DNA from: a virus
Virus record (IMG/VR): IMGVR_UViG_3300031653_000001
Coordinates: 1 to 64,000 of that record
Reading direction: 5' to 3' (one strand)
Length of the DNA: 64,000 nucleotides
Under the pieces are notes generated by a model. That model was not told the DNA's origin and made no database searches. It worked only from the letters and a program-made list of their open reading frames with translations. Made by a program: the position numbers and the translations under genes. This document shows, one piece after another, positions 3,363 to 61,534 of this stretch; positions within the stretch are counted from its first letter, which is position 1; each line of letters starts with the position of its first letter.

Positions 3363-3475
3363 CGTCGCTACAATACTCTTAGAACGCCACAGGAGCCCTG
3401 TAGAGCGTAGTTTAGGGGGTAGTGTCGTGTTTGTGTCGTGTTTGTATGGCTTTAGGGCTAAAATGGCTTATAGTA
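3363..3475 (+). repeat. Dispersed element copy A
   Basis: Related to the minus-strand copies at 45421-45526 and 61316-61420. Shared blocks in order: CTACAATA (3368), AACGCCACAGGAGC (3383-3396), GCGTAGTTTAGGGG (3405-3418), then a GT-rich stretch and a GGCTAAAA-type end. TACAAT could be a -10. In this copy ACAGG-AGC-CCTGT forms a local hairpin enclosed by ACGC/GCGT. All three copies lie outside genes and upstream of a transcription unit. Confidence 0.65.
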
Positions 3476-41791: not shown

Positions 41792-44089
41792 ATGGCGAAA
41801 AAGAAAAAAACAAACAGTATAGACCTTAATAGCTTCTATAAAGATTTTTGGAAGCAAAAAACAAAATCTAAAAGCAATGATATTGTTTCTCCTACCAATT
41901 TTTTTAAGAATTGGACTCACGCCCCATTATTTCCCAAACAGATGATACCAGTTGACAAAACATTCACCAACGATTATAAATCACTATCAACAAATATTAA
42001 TGAACTTGTAATAGGATTTGGGAAGAGATGTTTGGATGGAAGCACGAAACTTAAAGATGAAGAAACAAACAGAGAATACACAATAAAAGAACTATCAGAA
42101 AAGAAAAAAGCAATATCAATAAAAAGTGTTAAAGTAATTGGTAGTAACCAAAAAGGATGGCCAAAAGGAAGGGTTGTTACACAGAAAACAGGAGTACCAT
42201 TTTATAAAGGAAAATCAAAAATATATAGGGTCAAAACAGAGTCAGGAAAAGAAATTTTAGTTGGGGGGCACCATAGATTTTTATCTAAAAGTGGATGGAA
42301 AGAAATAAAGGATTTAAAGGTTAAAGAAGAAATTATGGTATCTAAAGCACCCAATGAGTCATTATCAAAAGAACAAGAAAAACAAAGAAAAAATAAAATT
42401 AGCAAAAAGATGAAAATGTTAACATGGGATAAAATAACAGAAATAGAGTATGTTGGGGAAAATGATATTTATGATTTAGAAGTACCCGAAACAAATACAT
42501 ATATTGCGCAGGGATTCGTTAGTCATAATTCAGGCAAGGATTTTTTAATATCAAACCTATTGACATATATACTTTACTTTCTTTTGAAACAATCAGACCC
42601 AGCAGAATTTTTAGGTCTTAAATCAGGAGAACCAATTGATATTGTAAATGTTAGTTTTGATGAACCACAAGCAAAAACAGTATTCTTTAAGAGATTAAAG
42701 AATAGGATAAAAGGTTGTATAAACCCTGAAACCAAAAGAAATTTCTTTGAAGAACAGGGAATGGATTTAAATAGAGATATACAAAAAAACAGTATAATAT
42801 TCCCAAAGAATATAACAGCATACTCGCTTAATTCTGTAAAATTTAAAGCTGAGGGGAAAAATGTTGTGTTTGCTATTTTTGATGAAATAGCGCAGTTTAG
42901 ATTTGATAAAGCAGATGCAATACGTAGGCATATTAAGACAACAGCTAAAGCAACATGTCCTAAATTTTTCAAATTATTTTATATTAGTTTTTTAACTAAT
43001 GGCAATGATTATATGGCTAATTTATTAGAAAAGGCAGAAAAAGGAGAAATGCCAAAAACTTTTTATATGCGAGAATCAACATGGAATGTTAGGAGCCAGA
43101 GAGGTTGCCCAAAAGAACTAAAGCCATATATTGTTCATCGTAGTACATACCAAGACGAGTTTGACGAAGATCAGGAGAACTCAACATTAATGTTTGAATG
43201 TAAAGTACCAAAAACAAGAAAAAGTAGTTTCATAAAACGACCAGAAAAAATACTTCAATCAGTAGGTTATATCTTAGACCAAAATGGTGAGAAAATATTT
43301 CGTGAAGATCCAAGAATAGAAAATGAAAAAATAATAGTATATGATGATGAACTAAAAGATTTAGAGTTTGAATCTTGGTTTAGACCATTCTATACCTGGG
43401 AGATATGGCAATTAGAAAGACAATACGATATACAACCATCAGAAGAATTAGAAAACCAAATAATTAAACTAAAAGAACGCCAACAAACAGCAGAGTATTA
43501 TACTCATATTGATTTATCTAGAGGGGTTGTAGATAGCGCAGGGATTGGTTTAGGACACAGATATTATATAATGGACAGGATAAAAATATATATAGATTTG
43601 ATATTGGCTATAAGAGCAAGAAAAGAACAGGAAATAGATATGTCCAAAATATTAGATTTTATATTACTTAGATTGCACAAAGGAAAAAAATCTCTTGGTG
43701 GTCTTGGATTTAATATACAAAAGATAACATCAGATGGCTGGAATAGCTCTCTATTTTTAAATTTATGTGAACGTGAGAATATGGAAGCAGAATTGATAAG
43801 TTTGGAGCGCACAACAGCGCCATATAATACATTTAAAGATTTCATATATAAGCAGGGTATAAACTATTATCCATATCCTCCTCTATTAAGAGAAACAGAA
43901 GAGCTTATAATAACAGATAATGGTAAAATACAACACCCAAGATCAAGCAGACGTAGAATGAAAGAAGAAGGGCTATCAAAAGGTTCGAAGGATTGTTCAG
44001 ATTGTTGCTCTGGTCTGAGTTATTCTATGACTCAAGATAGTGAAGAGGGCGATATGGCGTGGACAAGCGATCATGAACAGGAGGAATAA
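41792..44089 (+). CDS. Terminase large subunit containing a mini-intein
   Basis: A 765-residue precursor of the DNA-packaging motor. The Walker A loop is split: VIGFGKR (to residue 79), then an intein (80-246), then SGKDFLISN. Splicing restores GFGKRSGKD and gives about 598 residues. Walker B is VVFAIFDEIAQF. The nuclease domain begins near YYTHIDLSRGVVDSAGIGLG, with the catalytic Asp in HIDLS. It ends the rightward late cluster. The small terminase and portal lie on the other strand, 3-4 kb further on. Confidence 0.9.
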   Translation: MAKKKKTNSIDLNSFYKDFWKQKTKSKSNDIVSPTNFFKNWTHAPLFPKQMIPVDKTFTNDYKSLSTNINELVIGFGKRCLDGSTKLKDEETNREYTIKELSEKKKAISIKSVKVIGSNQKGWPKGRVVTQKTGVPFYKGKSKIYRVKTESGKEILVGGHHRFLSKSGWKEIKDLKVKEEIMVSKAPNESLSKEQEKQRKNKISKKMKMLTWDKITEIEYVGENDIYDLEVPETNTYIAQGFVSHNSGKDFLISNLLTYILYFLLKQSDPAEFLGLKSGEPIDIVNVSFDEPQAKTVFFKRLKNRIKGCINPETKRNFFEEQGMDLNRDIQKNSIIFPKNITAYSLNSVKFKAEGKNVVFAIFDEIAQFRFDKADAIRRHIKTTAKATCPKFFKLFYISFLTNGNDYMANLLEKAEKGEMPKTFYMRESTWNVRSQRGCPKELKPYIVHRSTYQDEFDEDQENSTLMFECKVPKTRKSSFIKRPEKILQSVGYILDQNGEKIFREDPRIENEKIIVYDDELKDLEFESWFRPFYTWEIWQLERQYDIQPSEELENQIIKLKERQQTAEYYTHIDLSRGVVDSAGIGLGHRYYIMDRIKIYIDLILAIRARKEQEIDMSKILDFILLRLHKGKKSLGGLGFNIQKITSDGWNSSLFLNLCERENMEAELISLERTTAPYNTFKDFIYKQGINYYPYPPLLRETEELIITDNGKIQHPRSSRRRMKEEGLSKGSKDCSDCCSGLSYSMTQDSEEGDMAWTSDHEQEE
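42029..42529 (+). other. Mini-intein (HINT) in TerL Walker A
   Basis: A 167-residue intein. It begins with Cys (CLDGSTKL, block A), has block B as ILVGGHHRFL with the usual Thr replaced by Gly, block F as NDIYDLEVPETNTYIAQGF, and ends VSHN followed by Ser+1. There is no LAGLIDADG or HNH domain; only a short Lys/Glu-rich linker sits where an endonuclease would be. It should be able to self-splice. Confidence 0.9.
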
Positions 44090-59242: not shown

Positions 59243-60277
59243 TTAAAATAGGGTTTTTTGTTCACTCCAACCCATTACATCAAATATTTTTTTGGCGGTA
59301 TTATCAATATTGTTTTTAGTCATTTTATTCCAGTCAATTTTATCTCTATCAATCAAATGTTTTTTATCAATTGCAATTACACCACCATTTTTTAGATACA
59401 CCCAATAAAATAACTCACCAAATCTTTTCTTTAGCTTGCTATTGTGTAAAGCTCTAACAAAAATGGGAAGTTTCTTTTTAAATTTTTTATCTCCTCTTAT
59501 TAGAAACTCTTTATATTCTACATCTTTTAATTTCGCTGGAACCCCAATATCTAACAATGGGGCTGTTAAAAATCGCTCCTTTTCGCTACCAACCCATTTT
59601 TTTGTTTCTGAATAATTTATATCTTTAAATATTTTTTCTTTAATTAAAGTTTCCTGAAATTCTGCTTTAAATTTTGAGCTTGCCGCTGATTTCATTTCAA
59701 GCCCACGAACCTTATAAGTACCATCCGCATATTGTCCAATATAATGACAATTATCAACGTTAAGCATTTTAACAAAAGATCTATCAGATTCAAAAATATT
59801 ATCTTCTATAATTTTGCCATATTTTTCTTTAGCCCATTGTTTTGCCAATTTATTAAATTCATCAACCAAGTCTTTTTCTGCTTGATATGCAATGCCATCT
59901 GTATCAATAAAAACAACCTTAAATTCAATATGAGATTCTATATAATGAAGCATATCTCTAACTAAAAAAGTTATAGTTTTTGGTATTTTAATGTTATATA
60001 AACGAAATGTTTTGAACGCCATCACACCGAAGAGAGAATTATATATTGATTTTATGGATTTATATCTCATTGAAAGAGAGGGGTTTGTTTTCTTTTGTTC
60101 TTTAATATTGGCTTTGATTTTACCTATCTTGATTACCAATTTAGTTACAATACCTTCTCTTTGAGCAAAAGAAACCCCATCTATTTCAACTCCTTTTTTA
60201 TCTACATTCTCTGGAGTTAAGAAAAATAGATCAATCATTGTTGGGTATGCCGATACAATATCTGCAATATAAATCAT
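59243..60277 (-). CDS. Family B DNA polymerase, C-terminal half (palm, thumb)
   Basis: A 344-residue protein. It starts MIYIADIVSAYPTMI, so motif A (Asp6, ADIVSAYPTM) is at its N-terminus. RYKSIKSIYNSLFGVMAF is motif B (K...NSxxG) and VVFIDTDGIAY motif C (DTD, Asp125/Asp127). MLNVDNCHYIGQYADGTYKV, then RGLEMKSAASSKF, follow the later palm. It contains every polymerase catalytic motif but no exonuclease. The start overlaps the stop of the upstream half as ATGA (60274-60277). Confidence 0.85.
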   Translation of the reverse strand: MIYIADIVSAYPTMIDLFFLTPENVDKKGVEIDGVSFAQREGIVTKLVIKIGKIKANIKEQKKTNPSLSMRYKSIKSIYNSLFGVMAFKTFRLYNIKIPKTITFLVRDMLHYIESHIEFKVVFIDTDGIAYQAEKDLVDEFNKLAKQWAKEKYGKIIEDNIFESDRSFVKMLNVDNCHYIGQYADGTYKVRGLEMKSAASSKFKAEFQETLIKEKIFKDINYSETKKWVGSEKERFLTAPLLDIGVPAKLKDVEYKEFLIRGDKKFKKKLPIFVRALHNSKLKKRFGELFYWVYLKNGGVIAIDKKHLIDRDKIDWNKMTKNNIDNTAKKIFDVMGWSEQKTLF

Positions 60278-61308
60278 TTGTAATATCCTGGGTTACTGGT
60301 GCGATATGCACCTTTAAATGTTTCTTTTATTTCTTTACCCCTGTTTGGTAAAACTATTCTATCTTCTTTGGCTTGCCGTAATAGCATAATATCCATCATT
60401 CTACTATTATATAAAGTATTTCCCCAATCACATCTAACAAACCTTCTAATATCATCATAAAAATCTAACAAATGATGTTTTTGCTCAATTTTCGCCAAAT
60501 CTTCAATATCTTCAATATTGTGTAATTTTAAATCCTCATTCACAATACTAAAATCCTCTATAGGATGTTTTTTGCCAGTGCCAAATTCGTATTCTAAAAT
60601 ATAATCCAATTTATATGATTTGCGACCATGTGGAAATATCTTTTTATACATTTCCATATAATCCAAAATTGATACCCCCGAAGGAACAAACAATTTATTC
60701 TGAAAATAAACTGAATTTATTGGACTAATAAAAGAAGAAAAATAACTTCTAAAATATTCGTTCCAGCGATTACATAAATATTCCCAATCAAAATTAATAT
60801 TCCAGCCCACAATTAAATCAAAATCCTCTCGCTTTAGGTATAATGCTAAATTTAACAGTAATTCTTTTTCGTTTTTATAATTGGGCAAGAAAAAATTTAT
60901 TTTATTCTTGTCAAAAGAATTATAGACTGTAACACAACTTACAGGATATTTAGCCTCTCCGGGCTTAGGAAAATCTTTTGCTTTAACTTCTATGTCCAAA
61001 AATGAATATTTGAACTCTGTTTTTTCTATAGAGTTTATTTTGTCAATAAAATATCGATTCCTATACAAAATATCTGATTCCCAACTATTTTTACTCTTTT
61101 GCTTTTTAATAATATTTGGCTCACTAACAAATACCTGTCTAAATGTTTTATTGCCATAAATACCTTTTAATGTTCCATTATCTGAAGTTTCATAATAGTA
61201 AGGTAAAAAGTTATTGTCAATAGTATAGAATTTTTTGCGATTTTCTCGCTGAAATAAATATATTGTATGTGCTTTGTTTGCTAAATTTACAAGTTTCATT
61301 TTCCCCAA
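60274..61308 (-). CDS. Family B DNA polymerase, N-terminal half (exonuclease)
   Basis: A 344-residue protein with the PolB N-terminal and 3'-5' exonuclease domains: YSFLDIEVKA (Exo I, Asp105/Glu107), LIVGWNINFDWEYL (Exo II, Asp174), and HNIEDIEDLAKIE (Exo III region, with His in place of the usual Tyr). It stops at FKGAYRTSNPGYYK, precisely where an intact PolB would run into motif A. The two halves together (688 residues) match a normal small family B enzyme. No intein sequence is visible at the break. Confidence 0.8.
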   Translation of the reverse strand: MGKMKLVNLANKAHTIYLFQRENRKKFYTIDNNFLPYYYETSDNGTLKGIYGNKTFRQVFVSEPNIIKKQKSKNSWESDILYRNRYFIDKINSIEKTEFKYSFLDIEVKAKDFPKPGEAKYPVSCVTVYNSFDKNKINFFLPNYKNEKELLLNLALYLKREDFDLIVGWNINFDWEYLCNRWNEYFRSYFSSFISPINSVYFQNKLFVPSGVSILDYMEMYKKIFPHGRKSYKLDYILEYEFGTGKKHPIEDFSIVNEDLKLHNIEDIEDLAKIEQKHHLLDFYDDIRRFVRCDWGNTLYNSRMMDIMLLRQAKEDRIVLPNRGKEIKETFKGAYRTSNPGYYK

Positions 61309-61315
61309 AAATCAA

Positions 61316-61420
61316 ATTTAAGCCTATTTTAGCCTCATTAGCTAAAATACCACATCTACCCCCTAAACTATGCCCAAATCAGCTCGTATGGCGTTTAAAT
61401 GATATTGTAGAGACCTATCT
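61316..61420 (-). repeat. Dispersed element copy C
   Basis: Minus-strand copy: CTACAATA (61410-61403), a TTTAAACGCCATACGAGC block, then GCATAGTTTAGGGGGTAG and GGCTAAAATAGGCTTAAA. It lies just upstream of the polymerase gene (start 61308) and overlaps the stop of the small gene at 61415. It is the most diverged of the three copies. Confidence 0.65.
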
Positions 61421-61534
61421 AAATATTTTTCTCTTATTCCCTGATATATAATATATTAATGTGAGTAATAACGATATTCCTGTTGCTATTATTACTACTA
61501 TTATTAACAAAAAATTTTTTATTTTTTTGAACAT
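61415..61534 (-). CDS. Small membrane protein, 39 aa
   Basis: ATG 61534 lies just after the stop of the upstream gene. The 39-residue product (FKKIKNFLLIIVVIIATGIS, then LLLTLIYYIS) is one long hydrophobic helix with a basic end (GNKRKIFR). No SD is evident, so expression would rely on coupling. Its final codon merges into element copy C. Confidence 0.5.
   Translation of the reverse strand: MFKKIKNFLLIIVVIIATGISLLLTLIYYISGNKRKIFR

Follow-up and report, generated by a model that had tools for sequence, protein, structure and literature searches.

The DNA analysed here comes from an uncultivated bacterial virus (IMG/VR record IMGVR_UViG_3300031653_000001, 68,680 bases), of which positions 1-64,000 form the window. 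On the minus strand, to which all features of the locus given below belong, two ORFs together make up one family B DNA polymerase (PolB). The exonuclease half (60274-61299, 341 aa) has an ATG start and a TGA stop. The catalytic half, with palm, fingers and thumb (59243-60277, 344 aa), starts at an ATG that lies inside a shared ATGA at 60274-60277. This stop/start overlap, read from the sequence, is the break point: the exonuclease ORF ends ...GAYRTSNPGYYK-TGA and the catalytic ORF begins ATG-MIYIADIVSAYPTM. Both ORFs, both terminal sequences and the overlap had been reported in a preliminary description and were confirmed on re-reading of the sequence, except that the exonuclease ORF, there given a TTG start at 61308, actually starts at the ATG at 61299, the same place at which its relatives begin (MKLLN/MRLQN).

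The exonuclease half matches Pfam PF03104 (E = 3.2e-11), the catalytic half matches PF00136 (DNA_pol_B, E = 2.8e-9), and PHROG 262 (phage DNA polymerase) matches both, with E = 4.5e-46 for the exonuclease half. The two ORFs are in different frames, and thus the family B polymerase is not encoded here as a single polypeptide, a departure shared with the known split PolBs. Both have a coding-like composition and are open over their 341 + 344 codons; the other frames of the same strand hold 22-51 stops each. When the 68,680-base record was searched with the family B profile, PF00136 gave one match only, the split gene. Upstream on the same strand are a clamp-loader ATPase gene and a gene that, from reading the sequence by eye, resembles a DnaN-type sliding clamp. 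Just past the window (64158-66268 of the full record, G000), by-eye annotation placed a cytosine-methyltransferase-like gene between these two, also on this strand and with a 4-nt overlap into the clamp-like one.

Exo I (Asp102-Ile-Glu104, 60988-60996) is found in an LDIEV that starts at residue 101 and is invariant in relatives, and Exo II (Asn167 to Asp171, NINFD, 60787-60801) was located from the sequence and the relatives. The probable Exo III region is an NIED containing Asp264 (60508-60519), where relatives have NIND, NIGD or NRND; the Tyr of the YxxxD motif is His, Lys or Arg in this PolB clade. The assignment of Asp264 is tentative. The acidic exonuclease residues Asp102/Glu104, Asp171 and, with that qualification, Asp264 are present. 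A YxGG/A-like motif (Phe328-Lys-Gly-Ala, 60307-60318), identified by alignment to KOD polymerase and the relatives, stays on the exonuclease half. The catalytic half contains motif A (Asp6-Ile-Val-Ser-Ala-Tyr-Pro, 60242-60262), motif B (KSIYNSLFG, 60026-60052) and motif C (Asp125-Thr-Asp127, 59897-59905), all read from the sequence, and the catalytic-half residues Asp6, Tyr11, Lys76, Asn80, Asp125 and Asp127 are present. The break therefore falls five residues ahead of the motif A Asp (Met1 to Asp6), as originally described. By-eye alignment to KOD sets Lys55 and Lys59 of a fingers helix (60101-60115) opposite the Arg/Lys that contact the dNTP; the two lysines occupy these positions only in a gapless KOD reading, MAFFT placing a gap there and making one of them Ile.

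The claim that each half has intact motifs can thus be upheld for the catalytic residues, but not for some of the positions around them. The invariant Lys two residues ahead of the motif A Asp is Ile4 in the window protein, the Pro of the fingers G-x-x-P is substituted in one alignment and missing in another, and Lys55/Lys59 are alignment-dependent as described above. Otherwise invariant columns are kept at 48 of 69 positions in the catalytic half, a count that includes one or two alignment-dependent losses, and at 49 of 56 in the exonuclease half, whereas intact relatives retain at least 0.91 and 0.88. The lower retention in the catalytic half is a sign of faster evolution, before or after the split. 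The two halves do not differ in their overall identity to the relatives (ratio 0.96-1.07).

Two IMG/VR searches with the catalytic half yielded 23 contigs with an intact homologue (17 clusters at 90% identity). In 23/23 of these, tblastn and frame reading showed a single open frame running through both the exonuclease and the catalytic part. Identity to the window over the best-aligned segments is 30-41%, with 33-41% for the exonuclease half against the N-terminal half of the intact relatives and 30-39% for the catalytic half against their C-terminal half. Reading the two window ORFs as one chain, solely for alignment, gave a gapless junction against most relatives (YK/MIYIAD versus YK/GLYKLD, the slash marking the break), with no residues lost or gained. 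As the junction aligns gaplessly to a clade of intact proteins, the observation is not due to chance. None of the 23 relatives has Met at the first residue of the catalytic half, which is consistent with a gained start codon. Uninterrupted relatives had been proposed as evidence against the split, and every relative found was indeed uninterrupted; being only 30-41% identical, they show that the split is lineage-specific and do not disprove it. Together with the gapless junction, they show that the split is derived, and on the sequences compared it has so far been seen once among what was searched.

The window's own clade (L004, L005, L024 and others) has the same domain order, but its polymerases are encoded in one unbroken ORF of ~690-960 aa, or of ~1,090-1,110 aa where an intein is present. 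Inteins were observed in the PolB of L013, L030, L042, L044 and L045, at four sites in all: in motif A in two of them, and otherwise in the region around exonuclease motif II, within motif C or beyond it. Excision of an intein was considered as the direct origin of the break and rejected, as the motif A inteins of L042 and L044 lie ~8 residues downstream of it and no scar is left. Intein splicing blocks are absent from the junction, which consists of the 4-nt overlap with no extra residues.

A pattern scan of IMG/VR for the same broken junction gave two matches (L022, L023), neither encoding a polymerase. Searches with the polymerase, RecA, clamp and clamp loader found no close PolB relative, no relatives were found in GTDB contigs, and the catalytic half had no tblastn match in the phage collection. 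A portal search identified the nearest syntenic relative, L048 (86% aa), the contig of which ends before the polymerase. The window genes are in frame against L048 over ~12 kb. L048 13479-16947 holds the counterpart of window gene 41792-44089, split over two frames; ~20 residues are covered in both frames, and the junction is not neat. A stretch of ~125 bases immediately ahead of the exonuclease ORF (61302-61425) matches L048 11699-11820 at 74%, a region that window 3368-3470 also matches, at 73%. These sequence matches perhaps represent a dispersed regulatory or promoter repeat.

To place the break in the folded protein, the intact relative L024 was modelled with AlphaFold (mean pLDDT 80); the best PDB matches of this model are RB69 gp43 and KOD polymerase. 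The break separates residue 352 from 353, midway along a palm strand (349-358, block pLDDT ~89) that ends in the motif A residue Asp358. The disordered linker between exonuclease and palm is elsewhere (residues 328-338, pLDDT <50), and the idea that the break is a relic of this linker boundary was rejected because it lies ~15 residues past the predicted flexible segment. The window catalytic half was modelled with a mean pLDDT of 70 and a poor thumb, and this model matches the palm/fingers of archaeal PolB structures (Foldseek E 1e-9). Judging from these models, a two-chain enzyme would need the strand to be completed between subunits, which is possible at a site that is not obviously favourable.

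Overlaps of 4 nt are the commonest spacing between neighbouring genes on the same strand, being found in 7 of the 33 other pairs. In experiments on bacteria and archaea, -4 nt overlaps couple translation, and they are over-represented where genes encode subunits of heteromeric complexes (PMC6728339, PMC10666635). The split polymerase has the -4 nt (ATGA) overlap of gene pairs coupled by termination-reinitiation. A Shine-Dalgarno-like AGGA element (60286-60289) is present 8 nt before the catalytic ATG; the duplex energy is -4.1 kcal/mol, compared with -4.3 for the exonuclease ORF, and the match is only moderate; 25% of all ATGs on this strand do equally well. When, as a null model, one-base indels were placed at random in the window genes and the relatives' PolB genes, the exact ATGA junction arose in 0.6-0.7% of cases, ~30-fold below the frequency of 4-nt overlaps on the strand.

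Two ways of reading the overlap were offered in the preliminary description. ATGA-coupled reinitiation is plausible and fits the junctions between other genes of this phage, whereas a programmed -1 frameshift at the ATGA, fusing the halves into one polypeptide, appears highly improbable. A single -1 step would be sufficient for such a fusion, and would rebuild the exact ancestral chain without an extra residue, but no X XXY YYZ slippery heptamer occurs in the final 30 exonuclease codons, and the last codon, AAA, re-paired one base back would land on CAA. Nor did folding of the local RNA (without pseudoknots) give a stimulatory structure at the junction any better than shuffles (z = -0.01). Recoding of the stop codon was rejected, as the exonuclease frame encodes nothing homologous past the TGA. 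Loss of function on one side only, with the exonuclease kept, the catalytic half in relaxed evolution and another polymerase replicating the virus, is in our view unlikely. The retention figures for invariant columns given above would agree with it, although the catalytic figure includes the alignment-dependent positions; against it, the catalytic residues are kept in an ORF of full length, the two halves are equally similar to the relatives, and the PF00136 search of the record found no second PolB.

A more serious rival is that the gene is continuous in most of the virus population, and that the contig departs from this at the junction, either through a consensus or assembly error of one base or as a recent variant without function. 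We consider this possible though on balance doubtful. All 23 intact contigs, from 17 clusters, read through, the two frames differ by one nucleotide with nothing lost or gained between the halves, and the frame break in another gene's homologue on L048 indicates that breaks do occur in such contigs. This rival is strong because the contig of that nearest relative ends before the polymerase. On the other hand, the window genes remain in frame against L048 over those ~12 kb, the junction is a short A run rather than a long homopolymer, and an exact ATGA is rare among random indels. Furthermore, a long-standing pseudogene would not remain open in DNA this AT-rich.

Functional split phage PolB enzymes are already known. 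In Aeromonas phages 44RR and 25, two cistrons make up gene 43, and for phage 25 the products co-purify and are active (PMC2988022). The T4-like phages with gp43A/gp43B (Aeromonas phages 44RR, Aes120 and 25, and Acinetobacter phage Lazarus) resemble the window in that PolB is encoded in two adjacent or nearby cistrons. In 44RR, however, the break is in the fingers between motifs A and B, so that 43A (498 aa) keeps motif A, and 43A of Lazarus and Aes120 is of about the same length. The window has the N- and C-terminal cistrons, but not a break between motifs A and B. Moreover, the halves in these phages are separated by an intercistronic insert or by other genes, whereas those in the window overlap by 4 nt with no insert. 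The archaeal split PolB3 genes (Methanobacteriales; Nanoarchaeum equitans) likewise represent a PolB in two genes derived from an unsplit ancestor, but they are cellular and tied to inteins (PMC4104785), whereas the window is phage DNA with no intein sequence at the junction.

The PolB of phage MIJ3 contains a split intein and a separate endonuclease, and protein splicing rejoins the halves (PMC6892783). Another viral PolB, at L059 1630-5237 (record G015, IMGVR_UViG_3300032007_000062), is broken at motif C: an upstream ORF ending in an apparent intein N part is followed by a 354-aa ORF, perhaps a homing endonuclease, and the last ORF begins with an intein C part (NTILVHNS) and continues with the rest of PolB. 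From its sequence, this locus is likely a fractured gene with a split intein. MIJ3 and the G015 locus share with the window a phage PolB in several ORFs, but differ from it in having intein halves with an endonuclease ORF between them, none of which are found in the window. The window pair, if functional, would work like the known split PolBs while differing from each in break site and insert features; what would be new here, if real, is the position of the break and the absence of an insert.

The chances that the locus encodes a naturally two-cistron polymerase made by termination-reinitiation seem to us about evenly balanced. This reading is favoured because both frames are open and retain their catalytic residues, no other PolB match was found in the record, and the ATGA spacing is the commonest on this strand and rare under random indels, and because a known split PolB, that of Aeromonas phage 25, has halves that co-purify and show activity. 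It is weakened by the finding of no relative with the same break, by the moderate Shine-Dalgarno match and by the lower retention in the catalytic half. It is further weakened because the interior of a palm beta strand is an unlikely boundary for well-evolved subunits.

If the gene is naturally two-cistron, an ancestral single gene would have undergone a one-nucleotide frame change and acquired an ATG five codons ahead of the motif A Asp. The ribosome would end the proofreading half at the TGA and step back one base onto the overlapping ATG, helped to restart by the AGGA element, so that the same mRNA directly yields the catalytic half. Side by side, the chains may then form one enzyme in which the split palm strand is completed, and this polymerase would act together with the clamp and clamp loader, whose genes lie just upstream. 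The fuller proposal, which we put forward tentatively and at somewhat short of even likelihood, is that of a two-subunit PolB with proofreading and synthesis on separate chains, broken inside the palm strand immediately before motif A, a site unseen in the split PolBs compared, with ATGA-coupled translation setting the ratio and assembly of the subunits.

If the split is not real, the locus is a useful reminder that an ATGA junction, however neat, can look like gene fission without being it. If it is real, it provides a natural and easily expressed separation of the exonuclease and polymerase modules of a replicative PolB, at a point where two chains have to make up a core palm strand jointly. 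The communication between proofreading and synthesis, and the survival of a replicative enzyme after gene fission, would then become directly testable.
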